A DNA stretch of 36,640 nucleotides from Leptolyngbyaceae cyanobacterium HOT.MB2.61. Its GTDB lineage: Bacteria > Cyanobacteriota > Cyanobacteriia > Leptolyngbyales > Leptolyngbyaceae. The position numbers and the translations under genes are program-made. The notes under the pieces were generated by a model. That model worked only from the letters and a program-made list of their open reading frames with translations. It was not told the DNA's origin and ran no database searches. The stretch is from NCBI GenBank assembly GCA_023511615.1, contig JAIMBL010000021.1:1-36640 (forward strand). Reading direction: 5' to 3'. Position 1 is the first letter of the stretch. The number at the start of each line of letters is the position of its first letter. Shown piece by piece: positions 14,177-36,640 of this stretch.

Positions 14177-14413
14177 GGCTTCTCTGGGGGTTGGCGATAA
14201 GCGAAGCCTGTCACTAAAACAAAATTAATAAGTAGCTGGGTGCAATTAAATTAAAGATAGTTTTGGGGGTGGAGGGAGTGAAACCCCCTGCTTGGGGGCA
14301 ACGCCCCCACTCCCCTTGCTTCCAATTAATGATGTCTACCTACTTATTCCAGGGGTTTTGTTTGAGATGAAAGAGTAGCGTAAGCTAATCTTCCACCGAC
14401 AAGTTGGGGAATT
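14177..14413 (+). repeat. Element A copy interrupted by a MITE-like insertion
   Basis: The left half (GGCTTCTCTGGGGGTTGGCGATAAGC... to AAAACAAAATTAA, ending about 14230) and right half (TTCCAGGGGTTTTGTTTGAGATGAAAG... from 14347) together reconstruct element A as at 9479-9600. The halves are separated by 14231-14344. The right terminal repeat is degraded and its boundary is approximate. Confidence 0.8.
14229..14346 (+). mobile_element. MITE-like element (114 bp plus TA duplication)
   Basis: The ends are TAAGTAGCTGGGTGCAATTA and, inverted, TAAGTAGGTAGACATCATTA, giving a perfect 7-bp terminal inverted repeat and a weaker extension. TA at 14229-14230 and 14345-14346 flanks the element, and removing it with one TA restores the element A sequence ATTAATATTCC. 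The centre is GC-rich and self-complementary (GGGAGTG...CACTCCC enclosing CCCCC, GGGGG and CCCCC runs). A second copy is cut by the window end at 36552 and a solo left end is at 21858. TA target use suggests mobilisation by an IS630/Tc1-mariner-type transposase, not present here. Confidence 0.82.
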
Positions 14414-28356: not shown

Positions 28357-28610
28357 GTGAACCCGTTTCAGTAAACCCGAAGTAGACTCCTGGGGCAGGT
28401 TTGCCAGGGCGGATTCAACCCCATCCCGTGCCGCCAGAAGGTCAAGGATCTGTTCGGCTGAGGGCCGGGGGGTCGCCTACTCCAGATCGGCAAGTCTGGC
28501 ATCATAGGTTGGCAGGTCGGCATCTAACCTGGAGGAATTCATGAGGGCGGTGCATTTGTGAGCCGAGTCATGGGGGTCTTAGGATGCCTTGCATTTTGGA
28601 GGGAATCGGT

Positions 28611-31600
28611 GTGGCGTTGGTTTCTCTGGTCATCACGGTTTATAACCGGGAACAGTATCTGGGCGCAGCGATTGAAAGTGTGCTGGCTCAAACCTATTCA
28701 GATTTTGAACTGATTGTTTGGGATGATGGCTCAACTGATCGCTCCCTGGAGATTGCGCAGGAGTATGCCTGCCGCGATCGCCGGGTGCGGGTGGTTGCTG
28801 CTCCCCATGCGGGAAGGGTGCCTGCTCTGCAGGCAGCGATCGCTAAAACTACGGGTATTTATTTGGGCTGGGTAGACAGTGATGACCTGCTGGACCCCAA
28901 AGCTCTGGAAGAAACGGTGGCGATTCTCAATGCCCACCAGAGCGTGGGGATGGTTTATACCGACTACCTGGATATGGATGAGTCCGGGCAGATGCTCGGC
29001 TATGGCTACCGCTGTCAGATTCCCTATTCCAGAGAACGCTTGCTACTGGATTTCATGACCTTCCACTTTCGTCTAATCCGGCGATCAGTGTTTGATCGAG
29101 TGGGGGGAATTGATGATTCTCTGGACTACGTTGAGGATTACGACCTCTGCCTGCGCCTGTCCGAAGTGACCGAGGTGCGCCACATCCGCAAGCCGCTCTA
29201 CTACTACCGTCACCATGAAGGCAGTGCTTCTCAGCAGTGGCGGATTGAACAGGTGTTGCGATCGCGAGCCATTATCCGTAAAGCCCTGAAGCGACGGGGC
29301 CTGTCTGATCAGTGGGAAATTCACATCCAGTTCCCGGAGGGACGCTTCGTGTTGCGCCGGAAGCAGAAGGCAGGAATGCGCCCGTTTCCTACTCGTCCCA
29401 CAGCAATGGAGGTGAGAAAAAAGTGGGAAGCCTCTCTGGTTCCCCTGTTCAGGGAAGGATGGAGGCAACCGCTTTCCCCGACTTCCTGCATTGCCCCCCT
29501 CTTGCTGGCTCTACCCCTTGCTACCCTCAGCCCAGTTGGGATGGCCCGTGCCCAATCCATCACGCCCACCCCCAATGGCAGCACCATTATTACCCCCAGT
29601 GGCGATCGCTTCGATATCACCGGCGGCACCCAGGCTGGAGCCAACCTGTTCCACAGCTTTCAGCGGTTTGGGCTGGATGCTGGGCAAATCGCCAATTTCC
29701 TCTCCAATCCCTCCATCCAGAACATTTTGGGACGGGTCACAGGGGGAGACGCTTCGATTATCAACGGGCTGGTTCAGGTTACAGGCAGTAATGCCAACCT
29801 GTACTTAATGAACCCGGCGGGGGTTGTTTTTGGCCCCAATGCTCGATTGAACGTGCCAGGGTCGTTTACAGCCGCCACCGCCAATGGGATTGGGTTTGGC
29901 TGTGCGGGGCCGGGGGTTGGCTGCGCAGGCTGGTTCAACGCGGTGGGAAGCAATGACTACGCCGCCCTGGTTGGCACTCCTGGCACCTTTGCCTTCACAA
30001 TGGCGCAACCGGGGGCGATCGTCAATGCTGGAAATCTGGCAGTTGGGCCGGAGCGATCGCTCATTCTCTTAGGCGGCACCATCCTGAACACCGGGCAACT
30101 TTCTGCACCGGGCGGACAGGTGACACTCGCTGCGATTCCAGGCAGCAACTTGGTGCGCTTGAGCCAGCAAGACAATCTCCTGAACCTGGAATTCATCCCC
30201 ACCTCCTCTCCCTCTTTCTCTTCCTCTACTTCCCCTACTCCCCTTCCCTTCACCCCCCTCACCTTGCCCCAACTGCTGACGGGTGGAAATCTGACCAGTG
30301 CAACGGGAGTTACGGTCAACCCGGATGGCACCATTCAATTGAGCGGATCGAGCCTGCGAGTTTCAACCAATCCGGGGACGGCCATCGTTTCCGGCAGCAT
30401 TACCACCTCCAATGCCACCCTTAGCCCCATTCCCGACTCTCCCTTGCCAACATCGCTCCTGGTGAATGTTTTGGGAACCCAGGTGGGGTTAATTGGAGCC
30501 ACCCTCAATGCTTCGGGGTTGACCGGAGGGGGAACTGTTCGGATTGGCGGAGACTACCAGGGGCGCGGCCCGCTTCCCAATGCACAGAGTACCTTTGTAG
30601 ACGCCAGTTCTACCATCAATGCGGATAGCTTGCGGAATGGAAATGGGGGCCGCGTCATCCTCTGGGCAGACCAGATTACCCGCTTCTATGGCAACATCAG
30701 TGCACGGGGAGGAGCCAATTCGGGGGATGGCGGCTTTGTTGAGGTGTCAGGCAAGCAAGATCTGGTCTACCGGGGATTTGCGGATGTTTCTGCGCCTGCG
30801 GGCAATCCCGGTACCCTGTTACTGGACCCGACCAACATCACCATTGTGGCGGGAGCCTATGGCTACGGTACGGGTGACACGGCCTTACCCGACATTTTCA
30901 GCACTGATTTTCCCGGTGCTTCCATCACCGTTGCTGAAGGAGCGTTAGAAGGATTTGGCTACAGCAATATCATCCTGGAAGCGACGAATGACATCACAGT
31001 CGCGTCCCTGGCGGATGGGGTGCTGAACCTGTTTAACTCCACCTCCGTTACCTTTAGAGCTGATGCTGATGGAGATGGGGCGGGTTCGTTCATTATGGGG
31101 GCCGGATACAGTCTGGTTGCCAATGGTCAGAATGTGACCATCTCTGGAGCTAATTTGATCCTGGGGGACATTGACACCTCCAGCACAGGGTTTGGCAACA
31201 GTGGGGATGTGAATTTGAATGCAGCGGGCAATATCACGGTTGGCAACATTAACACCAGCAGTTTTACCGGATTGGGGTACCGGGCTGGCAATGTGGATAT
31301 TACCAGTACCAGTGGGGCGATCGCCACGGGCAATATCTTTACCAACAGCGATGTCCAGTCGGGAGCTGTAACACTCTCTGCCCCTGGCAGCAATAGTGAT
31401 GTGACTTTTGGCAGCATCAGTGCTGTTGGAACTGGCGCTGGTTCAGCCGGGGCACCCGTATCGATTACGGCAGGAAGGTTTGTGCGAGGAACTGGCTTCA
31501 TCGATGGTGCCACTACCCCAACCATTGACAGTAGCGGACAGGCAATTTCTGGCTCAATCCAGATTGAGCATGGTGGTGGATTGGCCGATGTCCAGTTTGT

Positions 31601-33341
31601 GGTCGGAGATGCTGCCATTAATGGAACAGCGGGACGATTGGCCACTGGAACGGCTGCTGCCCCCAGCACTATTGGACCTGTCCGATCCTTCCCTGGCAGT
31701 TTCTCAACTACAGGGATTGATATCATTACAACAACTCCCCCACCTCCTCCACCACCCATTGATCCCGGTGATAAGGGCGGAAATGGTAAGCGGGGGAGAC
31801 CAGACATTCCACTGGATGACCAGGAAGAGATTTCCTCCGACCTTGCCGATACATCTGAAGAAGACCTGTCCCTGGACGTACCGGATGGAGATGGTCCCTT
31901 TCTGGAGGAACCGGGTGACTCAGATGTAGCCAGTCTGGAAGAGAATGCCAATTTTGAGTTTGAAGAATACTTAGATATTCCAGATGATCTCCCTACATTG
32001 AATGCAGGTGACGCTGAAAACATTCTTGATCGCATCAGAATGGAAACCGGAGTGAAACCTGCCCTCGTCTACGCATCCTTTGTGCCAGTCAGTGTTGCCA
32101 GGGAAAGGGGAAAAAAACCAGTATTTTCTACAAAAACGGCCCAGGCAACCGCCCATTCTGGCAGCAAAACCAAGGCAGAGCCATTTTTACCCAGGCAAAC
32201 AACTGTCAGCAATTCCATTAAGCTGTCCAGCTCTCTAGTAGAGAAAGTTGCCCAGGAAAATCGATCGCAGACACCGCGACAAAAACTTCCCCCCAGTGAC
32301 CAGGATCAGCTCGAACTGGTGGTCGTGACAGCTGAGGGAAAACCGATTCGGAAACTGGTCGCCGGAGCAACCAGAGGCCAGGTACTCAGAGTGGTCCGGC
32401 GCTTTATTAACGAAGTCACCGATCCCCGCAAAGTGCGGACTACCAGTTATTTGAACGCCGCGCAGCAGCTCTATCGCTGGATGGTGGCCCCGATTGAGTC
32501 AGAACTACAGGCGCGAGGAATTGGTAACCTGGCCTACATCTCAGATACGGGCTTGCGCTTTATTCCAATGGTGGCCCTGCACGATGGCAAACAGTTTTTG
32601 GTGGAGAAGTACAGTTTTGGGTTAATGCCCAGCATCAGCCTTACCAATACCCGCTACACCAGCCTCAAGAATGCGACAGTGCTGGCAATGGGAGCTTCGG
32701 AGTTTGCCGACCAGCCACCTCTGCCTGCGGTACCGACGGAACTGAAGGTGATTACCAAGGACCTCTGGCGGGGGACTTCCTTCCTCAACCAGGACTTTAC
32801 CCTGGCCAACCTGAAAGCCCAGCGAACCGAAGAGCCCTATCAAATCATTCACCTGGCAACCCATGGGGAGTTTCAGCCCGGTGCCCTGAGCAACTCCTAC
32901 ATCCAGCTTTGGGACACACGCTTGCAACTTGACCAGCTCCGTCAGTTGGGCTGGAGCAATCCACCAGTCGAGCTACTGGTCCTGAGTGCCTGCCGTACTG
33001 CACTGGGCAGCGACGATGCTGAACTCGGCTTTGCTGGATTTGCGGTGCAGGCTGGGGTTAAAACGGCTCTGGCCAGCCTCTGGAGTGTTAGCGATGAGGG
33101 TACCCTGGCGCTAATGACCGAGTTTTATCGCCAACTGCAGACGGCTCCTATCAAAGCGGAAGCTCTCAGGCGGGCACAGATTGCCATGCTGAAGGGGGAA
33201 GTGCAAATCGATGGTGATCAACTCCGTGGCTCACGGGGAGGAGAACTGGTACTGCCGGCTACTTTAGCAGTAGGGGGTAAGCGCACGTTAAATCACCCCT
33301 ATTACTGGGCGTCGTTTACCTTGATTGGCAGTCCCTGGTAA
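28611..33341 (+). CDS. GT2 glycosyltransferase-TPS haemagglutinin-CHAT protease fusion
   Basis: This 1,576-aa frame is counted from GTG 28611, which has GGAGGGAA 7 bp ahead; ATG 28584 is an alternative. Residues 1 to about 250 are a GT-A fold GT2 domain: SLVITVYNRE, WDDGSTD (DDGS 38-41), VDSDD (89-92), VEDYDLCLR. At Met266 begins what looks like a second protein, with a basic segment, a hydrophobic stretch about 292-311 and a MARAQ cleavage-like site. A filamentous haemagglutinin/TPS domain (about 316-436, with NLYLMNPAGVVFG) and a beta-helix-like Gly/Asn/Thr-rich region reach about 1035. A PPPPPPP linker and an acidic stretch follow. The C-terminus (about 1230-1576) is a CHAT domain, a caspase-like protease with His1418 (HLATHGEF) and Cys1461 (LSACRTALG). 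TPS-CHAT proteins are common in cyanobacteria; the GT2 head is the odd part. No TpsB pore gene is nearby. Confidence 0.88.
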   Translation: MALVSLVITVYNREQYLGAAIESVLAQTYSDFELIVWDDGSTDRSLEIAQEYACRDRRVRVVAAPHAGRVPALQAAIAKTTGIYLGWVDSDDLLDPKALEETVAILNAHQSVGMVYTDYLDMDESGQMLGYGYRCQIPYSRERLLLDFMTFHFRLIRRSVFDRVGGIDDSLDYVEDYDLCLRLSEVTEVRHIRKPLYYYRHHEGSASQQWRIEQVLRSRAIIRKALKRRGLSDQWEIHIQFPEGRFVLRRKQKAGMRPFPTRPTAMEVRKKWEASLVPLFREGWRQPLSPTSCIAPLLLALPLATLSPVGMARAQSITPTPNGSTIITPSGDRFDITGGTQAGANLFHSFQRFGLDAGQIANFLSNPSIQNILGRVTGGDASIINGLVQVTGSNANLYLMNPAGVVFGPNARLNVPGSFTAATANGIGFGCAGPGVGCAGWFNAVGSNDYAALVGTPGTFAFTMAQPGAIVNAGNLAVGPERSLILLGGTILNTGQLSAPGGQVTLAAIPGSNLVRLSQQDNLLNLEFIPTSSPSFSSSTSPTPLPFTPLTLPQLLTGGNLTSATGVTVNPDGTIQLSGSSLRVSTNPGTAIVSGSITTSNATLSPIPDSPLPTSLLVNVLGTQVGLIGATLNASGLTGGGTVRIGGDYQGRGPLPNAQSTFVDASSTINADSLRNGNGGRVILWADQITRFYGNISARGGANSGDGGFVEVSGKQDLVYRGFADVSAPAGNPGTLLLDPTNITIVAGAYGYGTGDTALPDIFSTDFPGASITVAEGALEGFGYSNIILEATNDITVASLADGVLNLFNSTSVTFRADADGDGAGSFIMGAGYSLVANGQNVTISGANLILGDIDTSSTGFGNSGDVNLNAAGNITVGNINTSSFTGLGYRAGNVDITSTSGAIATGNIFTNSDVQSGAVTLSAPGSNSDVTFGSISAVGTGAGSAGAPVSITAGRFVRGTGFIDGATTPTIDSSGQAISGSIQIEHGGGLADVQFVVGDAAINGTAGRLATGTAAAPSTIGPVRSFPGSFSTTGIDIITTTPPPPPPPIDPGDKGGNGKRGRPDIPLDDQEEISSDLADTSEEDLSLDVPDGDGPFLEEPGDSDVASLEENANFEFEEYLDIPDDLPTLNAGDAENILDRIRMETGVKPALVYASFVPVSVARERGKKPVFSTKTAQATAHSGSKTKAEPFLPRQTTVSNSIKLSSSLVEKVAQENRSQTPRQKLPPSDQDQLELVVVTAEGKPIRKLVAGATRGQVLRVVRRFINEVTDPRKVRTTSYLNAAQQLYRWMVAPIESELQARGIGNLAYISDTGLRFIPMVALHDGKQFLVEKYSFGLMPSISLTNTRYTSLKNATVLAMGASEFADQPPLPAVPTELKVITKDLWRGTSFLNQDFTLANLKAQRTEEPYQIIHLATHGEFQPGALSNSYIQLWDTRLQLDQLRQLGWSNPPVELLVLSACRTALGSDDAELGFAGFAVQAGVKTALASLWSVSDEGTLALMTEFYRQLQTAPIKAEALRRAQIAMLKGEVQIDGDQLRGSRGGELVLPATLAVGGKRTLNHPYYWASFTLIGSPW

Positions 33342-33516: not shown

Positions 33517-35919
33517 TTACTTAAATGGCACAAAACCGTAGCCTGTCGGCGATCGCAAATCCGGTTGAACTCTGACCAGCACGCCAATTTCAGGAACAAG
33601 CTGGCGTTCACCGGAGGGCAGAAACTGAATCGATCCACTGGCTCCCTGCACGGAAAAATCGGGGCTCCTGAGGATGTCTTTCAACCCCTCGCGAGTCTGG
33701 CTTTGCCGGAGGGCGGTGGCAATTGTCCATACCGCGTCATAGGACATGGCTGTGCGCCAGTTCACTTTACCCCCCCAGCGCTGGATAGCAAGGTGAGGAA
33801 AGGGATTCTCCGTTAACACAGCAGGATGCCAGGGAACCACTAAGGTCAAACCGTTGACAGCAGCTTTCCCGGACAGGGTTTCAGCCGTATAGGGAGTTGG
33901 GCTGCCAAACAGGGGAAGCCTGCCCTGATTAGCCTGGGCGATTTCTACCACTTTATGAACCCGATCCACGTGGGGAGCCAGCAGCAAAGTGTTAGCTCCA
34001 CGGCTCATGATTTGAGCGATCGCGGCATGGGGTTCAAAATTGAGATCGGAAAAGTCACAATTGACGTTGACAAAGGTGATTTTCTTCTCCAGTAGAGCAG
34101 TTGTGAATTGGTTTCGAAAAGACTCATTATCTGGAGCAGCCTCATCTGAACAGATAGCCACTTTCGCTTGCGGAACGGTTTGGCGAATGTACTCTGCCAG
34201 TTTATCGGCAACATACCAGATGCTGGGAACCATGCGAAAAATATACTTGCCGCTGGAGGAGAGCTTGTCAGAAAAACTGGTGGGGGTAATCATGGGTAAG
34301 CCGCCCTGATTGTAAACAGGAGCCGCTGCCACAGAAGCATCACTGGCGTTGTGCCCAATTACCGCTAAGATACGCGGGGCTTTGACAAAGGTGGCAGCAA
34401 GGCGTTTGGCAACTTCAGGTTGGTTCTCGTCATTGGCAACGATGACTTTTAACGGTTTTCCCTGAATGCCACCCCTGAGATTGATTTCATCCTGGGCCTG
34501 AGCGATACCGCGCAACATTTCCTGGGCCACATTCAGATTGCTGCCAATGGGAACTACCACTGCCACTTTAAAGGCGGGGCGATCGCCAATTCGAGCATTG
34601 TTGAGGTAAATCACCGTTTCTGGATCATTGCGATTTTGGCGCAGGGAATTTTCAAATTTGCTGACGGCTTGCGGGTAGTCTTTCCACCCGAATGCCTGCA
34701 CACCCGCAATTTTGTCTGGTGTCTGGACAGATGGAATCAACATCTTTTCTCCCTGACTGAGGCGGTTACGAAACTGAATCGTATCTACCGTAAATGAAGC
34801 ACTGATTGCGGCGATCGCGGCACCCGCTCCAGCCAGAGCCATTTTTCGCCAATTTGCAGGGCGGGGATATTTCAGCTCAGGTGCTAATGGATTTTGAACA
34901 ATCACTGGCAGCCAGGAAGCACAGGGAAACTCCTGCTCCATGTCTTTCCTCAACCGCAATCGAGCAATTTGAACCGCGGTATAAAACGGTTCTCCTCGCG
35001 CAAAGGTTTCCAGAAAATAGCGGGCAAATCGCTGGGCAACTACATCGGGAATCGGTTCCCGCATCACAATCATGTAGGGAATCTTTAAATCAGTCAGGTC
35101 GCGAGTCAGCCCCAGTCCATCGCAGGAGTTAAAAATGGCCAGTTGCAAGCCACGGGCGATCGCCCGTCGCAAGGCATCTTTCAGTTCATCCAGGGTCAGG
35201 CTTTCCTGAGCGTTAATGTAGATTCGTCCCTGTTCTCCCCAGGTTTCACTGTGTCCGGCAAAGAAGAGGATATCCCAGGGCTGCTTCCAGAGATGGTCAT
35301 CAATCTGGTGGCGATCAGGTTCCACCAGAAATGTCACTGCAGCTCTCGGTAGCGCTTCCAACAACTGGCGGTCTGCCTGGATATTGAGGTCAGCGTTGTT
35401 TCCTAAAATTGCCAGAATCTTGACCGGGCTTCTGAGCTGCTTAGAGTAAGGTTCTGTTTCAGCACACAGAGTAATTTCAGCCTGGGGATAGCATTCTTGA
35501 AAAAAGCTCCACAAATGCCAGGGAAATCGCCATAATTGAGAATTTTGAGTTTGCAAAATGAACCGTGCTGGTTCAGATGCACCGATCGCTCTGAGTAATT
35601 TTCGCTCCAAACTGCGCACCGCTGGCTGATTCAACCACTCGTTTAAACCCGCCTCCAGCACTCTCGCCGCAGTTTCGCATTCTTCTACTTTAGAAACATT
35701 CGTGACCTGAGAGGGTGGAACAGTAATGCGTTGAATAACTCCCAGGCGGCGATAAATATTTTGCCACTGGTAGTAATATTTATGGATTTGGGGCGCAGGC
35801 GGAAACTTTCCCCGCACTTCCCGGTACTGGGATCGAGTGGTTTCCCAGATTCGAATGGTGACCGGAAACCCCTGTTCAAAGCTACCTTCTTCAATGTTGA
35901 AGACAACCCGTTTAACCAT
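33517..35919 (-). CDS. CHAT protease-transmembrane-periplasmic-binding receptor
   Basis: This 800-aa protein joins three parts. Residues about 85-345 are a CHAT caspase-like domain with a plausible catalytic dyad: His223 in LFFAGHSETWGE and Cys266 in AIFNSCDGLGL. Residues about 359-377 (MALAGAGAAIAAISASF) form the only membrane helix, after a basic NWRKM, which would place CHAT in the cytoplasm. A TPR-like pair (about 403-440, DYPQAVSKFENSL) comes next. Residues about 449-800 are a type-1 periplasmic ligand-binding fold, LivJ-like (FKVAVVVPIGSNLNVAQEMLRG; ILAVIGHNASDASVAAAPVY; MITPTSFSDKL), as in amino-acid binding proteins and receptors. Ligand binding outside could therefore control a protease inside. 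It is 25 bp downstream of the small membrane gene and convergent with the other CHAT gene across 175 bp. Confidence 0.9.
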   Translation of the reverse strand: MVKRVVFNIEEGSFEQGFPVTIRIWETTRSQYREVRGKFPPAPQIHKYYYQWQNIYRRLGVIQRITVPPSQVTNVSKVEECETAARVLEAGLNEWLNQPAVRSLERKLLRAIGASEPARFILQTQNSQLWRFPWHLWSFFQECYPQAEITLCAETEPYSKQLRSPVKILAILGNNADLNIQADRQLLEALPRAAVTFLVEPDRHQIDDHLWKQPWDILFFAGHSETWGEQGRIYINAQESLTLDELKDALRRAIARGLQLAIFNSCDGLGLTRDLTDLKIPYMIVMREPIPDVVAQRFARYFLETFARGEPFYTAVQIARLRLRKDMEQEFPCASWLPVIVQNPLAPELKYPRPANWRKMALAGAGAAIAAISASFTVDTIQFRNRLSQGEKMLIPSVQTPDKIAGVQAFGWKDYPQAVSKFENSLRQNRNDPETVIYLNNARIGDRPAFKVAVVVPIGSNLNVAQEMLRGIAQAQDEINLRGGIQGKPLKVIVANDENQPEVAKRLAATFVKAPRILAVIGHNASDASVAAAPVYNQGGLPMITPTSFSDKLSSSGKYIFRMVPSIWYVADKLAEYIRQTVPQAKVAICSDEAAPDNESFRNQFTTALLEKKITFVNVNCDFSDLNFEPHAAIAQIMSRGANTLLLAPHVDRVHKVVEIAQANQGRLPLFGSPTPYTAETLSGKAAVNGLTLVVPWHPAVLTENPFPHLAIQRWGGKVNWRTAMSYDAVWTIATALRQSQTREGLKDILRSPDFSVQGASGSIQFLPSGERQLVPEIGVLVRVQPDLRSPTGYGFVPFK

Positions 35920-35944: not shown

Positions 35945-36457
35945 CTAAGGCTGTTCGCCTGTGCGTATTTCAGGCCGACCCAAATGCTGTAACAATCCAC
36001 CCAGCGTGACCATTATGATTGTAGGAATAAACCAGATGGAAAGCAGCCGTTCCCTGGCAGTTTGCTCTGCTTCCCAATGTCGTCCTGTATTATGACGAAT
36101 TCGCAAAATTTCTCCCTGGACAATTGTTTTAGCCAAAACAGGATTCAACAGCGCATCCATCTCTGTTCCCTTTGGAAACTGGTTGAGTAAATCTCTGGAG
36201 CTACGGATTGGTGCCCTTAACGAAACGATAGGAATCAACCGTTCTTCCTGTCCTTCTACAGTTCCAATTAACCAGTAACGTGCTAAACCATCATCGTCAT
36301 TGTAGACGGCATCTGTTACTGTGAATTTCACAGGACGGTAGAGTGAAGATGTGCTGTAGATTACCAGCCGATTAAAGGCAGACCCTATCCATAGAAAAGT
36401 CCACATCGTTGCCAGGGATATTAAGATTCTGGCAGCCTTGCGACTAAACTTTTTCAT
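35945..36457 (-). CDS. Small two-helix membrane protein of unknown function
   Basis: This 170-aa protein starts at ATG 36457, chosen because AGGAGAAG lies 6 bp upstream; a longer frame from 36508 has no such site. TM1 is about residues 8-28 (ARILISLATMWTFLWIGSAF) and TM2 about 138-158 (LLSIWFIPTIIMVTLGGLL). The about 105 residues between them lie on the other side of the membrane and look beta-rich (VKFTVTDAVYNDDDGLARYW...). This layout resembles DUF3592-type proteins, but I cannot confirm the family. It is the first gene of a two-gene operon with the CHAT receptor (25 bp gap) and may be an accessory or regulator of it, by position only. Confidence 0.78.
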   Translation of the reverse strand: MKKFSRKAARILISLATMWTFLWIGSAFNRLVIYSTSSLYRPVKFTVTDAVYNDDDGLARYWLIGTVEGQEERLIPIVSLRAPIRSSRDLLNQFPKGTEMDALLNPVLAKTIVQGEILRIRHNTGRHWEAEQTARERLLSIWFIPTIIMVTLGGLLQHLGRPEIRTGEQP

Positions 36458-36551
36458 TGAAACTTCTCCTGAGCGTTTGGACAAGTTTGAGCATTTCAAT
36501 TTGAGCATTTCAAATTGTTTTTTGCTGATCCATGTGATGTATCAACGATGG

Positions 36552-36640
36552 TAAGTAGCTGGGTGCAATTAGATTAAAGATAGTTTTGGTGGGTAGAGGG
36601 GGTGAAACCCCCTGCCTGGGGGCAACGCCCCCACTCCCCT
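36552..36640 (+). mobile_element. MITE-like element, second copy (cut by window end)
   Basis: From TA at 36552 the sequence TAAGTAGCTGGGTGCAATTAGATTAAAG matches the element at 14229 nearly base for base through its GC-rich core (GAAACCCCCTGCCTGGGGGC...CACTCCCCT). The right end lies outside the window. It is upstream of the small membrane gene of the CHAT operon. Confidence 0.85.

Follow-up and report, generated by a model that had tools for sequence, protein, structure and literature searches.

The locus and a predicted receptor-protease

The stretch of DNA analysed here (the window) comprises 36,640 nucleotides, positions 1 to 36,640 of contig JAIMBL010000021.1 of Leptolyngbyaceae cyanobacterium HOT.MB2.61 (assembly GCA_023511615.1). 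Close to its right end, on the reverse strand, lies a gene for a protein of 800 amino acids (aa) that joins a caspase-like CHAT domain, a single predicted membrane helix and a LivJ-like periplasmic binding protein (PBP) domain in one chain, an anatomy proposed in an initial annotation of the DNA and borne out by Pfam, by profiles of the Protein Data Bank (PDB) and by hydropathy. Its features are as follows.

33517..35919, minus strand: CHAT-transmembrane (TM)-PBP gene, 800 aa, ATG start (open reading frame (ORF) call, Pfam, homologues)
35425..35919, minus strand: N-terminal conserved region, residues 1-165 (about), from alignments; missing from the initial annotation
34885..35424, minus strand: CHAT (caspase-like) domain, residues 166-345, from Pfam and the profile match to PDB 8tl0
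35251..35253, minus strand: codon of His223, predicted catalytic, motif FFAGHS (alignment)
35122..35124, minus strand: codon of Cys266, predicted catalytic, motif NSCDG (alignment)
34786..34842, minus strand: predicted membrane helix, residues 360-378 (MALAGAGAAIAAISASFTV), from hydropathy and charge flank
34585..34767, minus strand: TPR-like linker, residues about 385-445, common to a kinase-TM-PBP paralogue and standalone PBPs; likewise missing from the initial annotation
33550..34578, minus strand: LivJ-like type 1 periplasmic binding domain, residues about 448-790 (Pfam, PDB profiles)

Pfam recognises two domains, CHAT at residues 185-364 (E 1.7e-14; 54.4 bits against a curated cut-off of 24) and Peripla_BP_6 at residues 451-769 (E 7.6e-27). 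The sole PDB match for the CHAT half is a weak one to the CHAT-domain protein 8tl0 (profile E 0.0011), in which both catalytic residues are aligned. A homologue search in 388 genomes of the class yielded about 20 full-length homologues with 39-57% identity across most of their length, while many genomes had just one of the halves; from the best-matching loci we took 69 CHAT modules, which are a sample of the close subfamily and not of all CHAT proteins. His223 and Cys266 sit exactly where the initial annotation had placed them, and the pair is invariant in all 20 full-length sequences (window protein included) and in 69/69 modules. Judging from architecture and neighbourhood, the N-terminal region probably corresponds to EACC2 of Kaur et al. 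2021.

The binding domain gave full-domain profile matches to PDB 4mlc (6.7e-34) and LivJ (2liv, 2.2e-26). In the HMMER alignment, S79 is the only LivJ anchor retained (as S526), while T102, Y202 and E226 are replaced by F549, V651 and P674. Since most anchoring residues are changed, a plain branched-chain amino acid is an unsafe guess, and a LivJ-type amino-acid ligand seems doubtful on these substitutions.

Residues 360-378 form the single hydrophobic stretch of the protein and its highest hydropathy peak (mean Kyte-Doolittle 1.74). A hydrophobic stretch is found at the matching position in 20/20 full-length sequences, weaker (1.2-1.4) in four of them. The flank on the N-terminal side of the helix is positively charged (4 K/R vs 1 D/E over 15 residues), a bias consistent with this side being inside. 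Two paralogues in the same genome bear on the orientation as well. In one (L004), a Ser/Thr kinase (Pkinase 1.2e-31) precedes the shared helix, linker and PBP and, because a kinase needs cytoplasmic ATP, the part before the helix is likely to be cytoplasmic. CHASE2 is an extracytoplasmic sensor, and since a paralogue with a related CHAT half bears CHASE2, the sensor half is likely to face outwards. The predicted topology thus has CHAT inside and PBP outside.

Exchange of sensor domains

The same N-terminal module carries CHASE2, PBP, kinase and other C-termini, the variability expected of the EACC2-caspase kind: among the 69 modules, 36 were followed by CHASE2, 22 by a PBP and one by a kinase, and the remaining ten had other C-termini, which in the members scanned were a PsbP-like domain, pentapeptide repeats or no recognised domain. 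In the tree of these modules the PBP label changed at least three times, as judged by starred branches. The window's genome alone harbours five CHAT modules of EACC2-caspase-like kind. Two paralogues (L002 and L003) have a CHAT half 48-50% identical to the window's that is fused to CHASE2, two further CHAT-CHASE2 proteins (L005 and L006) are more distant from the window CHAT, and the kinase paralogue L004 is 37% identical to window residues 372-773, with a TPR_2 match in Pfam that stays below the cut-off. This swapping within one genome, in which the N-terminal module recurs with CHASE2 and the sensor half with a kinase, supports a receptor. The suggestion of a receptor-protease in the initial annotation thus gains from the anatomy, the invariant pair and the module swapping, while proteolysis itself is a prediction from sequence. 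Relatives of neither the CHAT half nor the PBP half were detected in the viral contigs searched.

Further variants of this architecture were noticed. One 1234-aa protein (L047) has one CHAT module followed by two PBP domains in tandem, and another locus (L048) holds a tandem pair of CHAT-PBP genes. Standalone TM-TPR-PBP genes of ~470 aa (L039, L040, L041, L049, L050, L055, L141, L142, L146, L148) follow a PspA/IM30-like gene in 11 of 31 copies, and several adjoin a CHAT-PBP operon; they may form a membrane-stress branch of this sensor family.

Conserved sigma factor-like and DUF1822 neighbours

A survey of CHAT-TM-PBP loci for conserved neighbours, envisaged in the initial annotation, identified a gene similar to extracytoplasmic function (ECF) sigma factors and a DUF1822 gene upstream, the usual order being sigma-like gene, DUF1822 and CHAT-PBP on one strand. 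By simple ORF calling and locally built profiles, on which all neighbourhood counts rest, a same-strand upstream DUF1822 was present at 15/19 assessable PBP-type genes, and a sigma-like gene was recognised at 14 of these 15; contig ends leave too little upstream sequence at the window, L044 and L023, which are outside this set. CHASE2-type genes had the same-strand upstream DUF1822 in 29 of 36 cases. Pfam detects the sigma-like family only weakly, with single-sequence matches to Sigma70_r2 in 3/30 members, and the family aligns with the genome's own ECF sigma factors (hhalign 95.9%, E 6e-9; reversed control 0.2%). The sigma fragment of the window's genome itself passes Sigma70_r2 with 30 bits against a cut-off of 24. 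These conserved neighbours point to a transcriptional output.

CHAT and DUF1822 distance matrices are correlated (Mantel r 0.83, 0/2000). One locus with a PBP sensor (L049) clusters with non-PBP loci in both the CHAT tree and the DUF1822 tree, which argues that DUF1822 tracks the CHAT half and not the sensor.

The window's probable operon across the contig end

The window's contig stops 132 bp past the gene directly upstream of the CHAT-PBP gene, short of the positions expected for sigma and DUF1822. Two features lie in this terminal part.

35945..36508, minus strand: gene for a 187-aa membrane protein, just upstream at a gap of about 25 bp (ORF call)
36591..36640, no strand assigned: terminal 50-bp repeat of the contig, matching the end of contig C280 exactly and in joining orientation

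Five DUF1822 genes were found in the window's genome, four of them adjoining CHAT-CHASE2 genes and the fifth on C280, a contig of 3194 bp with the order sigma fragment, DUF1822, Ser/Thr kinase, contig end. Among 38 copies of the repeat in the genome (<=3 mismatches), the window end and the C280 end are the sole exact ones. The C280 DUF1822 is closest to those from PBP-type loci and has a helical insert (RWxxAExLW motif) that occurs at nine PBP-architecture loci, including two with genes split by the ORF caller, and in 0/29 CHASE2-type copies. Likewise, the kinase on C280 shares 54% identity with the one near CHAT-PBP in L042 and L043, compared with 32-34% for other kinases. Given the end overlap, the affinity and insert of DUF1822 and the kinase identity, we place the window gene downstream of sigma, DUF1822 and kinase with good but not complete confidence, and the sigma and DUF1822 neighbours of the window gene are known only through this inferred join. 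A mirror-tree comparison of the window CHAT with the C280 DUF1822 (0.61) did not discriminate it from control DUF1822 genes (0.56, 0.60) and was not used. The ~50-bp repeat is G+C-rich and also present at 14267-14316, and several of the 38 copies are located at contig ends.

Halves of the sigma gene are located at the ends of C280 (L087, G000:C280:1-365) and of C356 (L088, end of G000:C356). The split site is marked by inverted ends that match each other and by a 10-bp target duplication (CCCATGATTC); once the insert is left out, the flanks line up collinearly. It appears that an element resembling an insertion sequence has split the sigma gene of this genome.

Proposed mechanism and alternative explanations

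We consider it somewhat more probable than an even chance that the protein is a single-pass receptor of the EACC2-caspase kind, in which ligand-gated proteolysis by CHAT acts together with the ECF-like sigma factor and DUF1822. A small molecule would be bound by the periplasmic LivJ-like domain, whose closure would be relayed via the TPR-like linker and the single membrane helix to the cytoplasmic EACC2-CHAT module, where the His223/Cys266 pair would then cut a protein. DUF1822 would most likely be a cut or released regulator that restrains the sigma factor, though an adaptor role was also considered, and the outside signal would thereby end in transcription. From sequence and gene order we infer protease activity, topology, ligand gating and the role of DUF1822 as substrate or anti-sigma factor. 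The more specific version, a one-chain transmembrane receptor whose cleavage of a DUF1822 anti-sigma factor releases an ECF sigma factor, with sensors exchangeable across cyanobacteria, is held tentatively.

Several observations weigh against ligand-gated proteolysis acting with these partners. We found no biochemical evidence for any family member, and an AlphaFold2 model from an alignment of two rows (the window protein and its relative L009) was uninformative, with a pLDDT of 33. The hydrophobicity of the window helix (1.74) is moderate. Four of the 19 assessable PBP-type genes (L045, L047, L052, L094) have neither sigma nor DUF1822 upstream; the L045 CHAT module is near-identical to that of L046, which has the upstream pair that L045 lacks, a sign that receptors may outlast the loss or relocation of their partners. 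The correlation of the CHAT and DUF1822 trees would be expected in any co-inherited operon and, with its sigma gene split, the pathway may be impaired in the window's organism.

As an unlikely alternative, the protein might be an effector of cell death or conflict, whose caspase domain, activated by ligand or stress, cleaves itself and many proteins while the sigma factor merely co-regulates the operon. Kaur et al. 2021 (PMC8195603) group EACC2-caspase proteins with systems resembling apoptosis and immunity and suggest activation as an autopeptidase. On the other hand, the partner genes have regulatory roles, the sensors look like receptors for nutrients or environmental cues and a single genome keeps five such modules; moreover, no PADLOC defence model matched the 800-aa protein, DUF1822 or the sigma factor, and we dropped an assignment as a defence system for this reason. 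Signalling by conformation alone, with CHAT as a ligand-gated scaffold that recruits or releases DUF1822 and the sigma factor without proteolysis, would explain the operon association by binding and suits a substrate that is so far a candidate; the retention of His and Cys in every module despite wide divergence elsewhere, as catalysis predicts, makes it rather improbable.

The fold of branched-chain amino-acid binding proteins could also indicate a tethered substrate-binding protein of an ABC transporter, with CHAT controlling transporter turnover. We regard this as very unlikely: no LivFGHM-like genes were recognised beside the homologues (whose neighbours were not systematically annotated), a kinase carries the same sensor half and only one of the main LivJ anchors is kept. 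Least probable of all, and barely credible, is a conserved partnership with the 187-aa protein, which the initial annotation had described as a co-operonic membrane protein with two helices. The shared strand and short gap speak for it, and the one suggested helix that was measured gave a clear hydropathy peak; yet a single, partial relative was found in 42 family genomes, in a genome without a full-length CHAT-PBP match, and a homologue was absent from the 20 other loci of CHAT-PBP architecture, which speaks against this neighbour as a conserved partner.

Relation to known systems

EACC2-caspase proteins whose C-termini vary, extracellular CHASE2 types among them, were described beside ECF sigma and DUF1822 genes by Kaur et al. 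2021 (eLife, PMC8195603), who proposed that a stimulus activates the protease. The constant N-terminus, the caspase-like domain, the exchangeable sensor, the membrane helices of extracellular types and the neighbouring genes are all common to those systems and ours. The sensors named in the sections of the text drawn on here are CHASE2, PDZ, kinase, STAND and unspecified small-molecule-binding domains, and a single-helix LivJ-like PBP type is not named among them; with respect to these sections, the PBP-type protein is a new sensor variant of already described EACC2-caspase modules (PMC8195603). Literature searches for CHAT with CHASE2, with periplasmic binding or with metacaspases in cyanobacteria returned nothing.

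A route from a CHAT protease to a sigma factor is made plausible by Csx29, a TPR-CHAT protein of type III-E CRISPR systems that cuts Csx30, with proposed relief of the inhibition of an ECF sigma factor, CASP-sigma (PMC10028731). Allosteric activation would be a point of likeness, but Csx29 is soluble, has two CHAT subdomains and is activated by target RNA via Cas7-11 (PMC10028731). No relationship between Csx30 and DUF1822 is known. In the DegS-RseA-RpoE envelope-stress cascade an outside signal likewise leads to proteolysis of a sigma inhibitor and release of the sigma factor, there with a periplasmic serine protease and RseP, whereas in the window protein one chain would hold both a cytoplasmic cysteine protease and an external ligand-binding domain. 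The paralogue L004 shares the TPR-like linker and the LivJ-like sensor but has a protein kinase as output. LivJ and Leu-Ile-Val-binding proteins (PDB 2liv, 1z15) and 4mlc have the same fold and match over the full profile length; unlike them, the window PBP is anchored by a helix to CHAT, besides its altered amino-acid anchors.

If the proposed mechanism holds, receptor-proteases would let cyanobacteria perceive small molecules, as a transmembrane counterpart of sensor kinases, and two-component kinases and DegS/RseP-type cascades would be joined by another route that links an outside small molecule to transcription. The common, uncharacterised DUF1822 family would gain a testable role. The PBP type looks like the most tractable of the EACC2-caspase kind, with a sensor that can be purified and probed for ligands, a Cys266 that can be removed and candidate substrates (DUF1822, sigma) in the operon.

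A neighbouring open reading frame

On the plus strand at 28584-33341, a 1585-aa ORF encodes a family 2 glycosyltransferase (residues 14-173), followed by a stretch resembling a signal peptide, then a TPS secretion domain (330-541) and, at the C-terminus, CHAT (1292-1583). The position of the glycosyltransferase ahead of an internal signal peptide suggests that two genes were fused or misassembled here.
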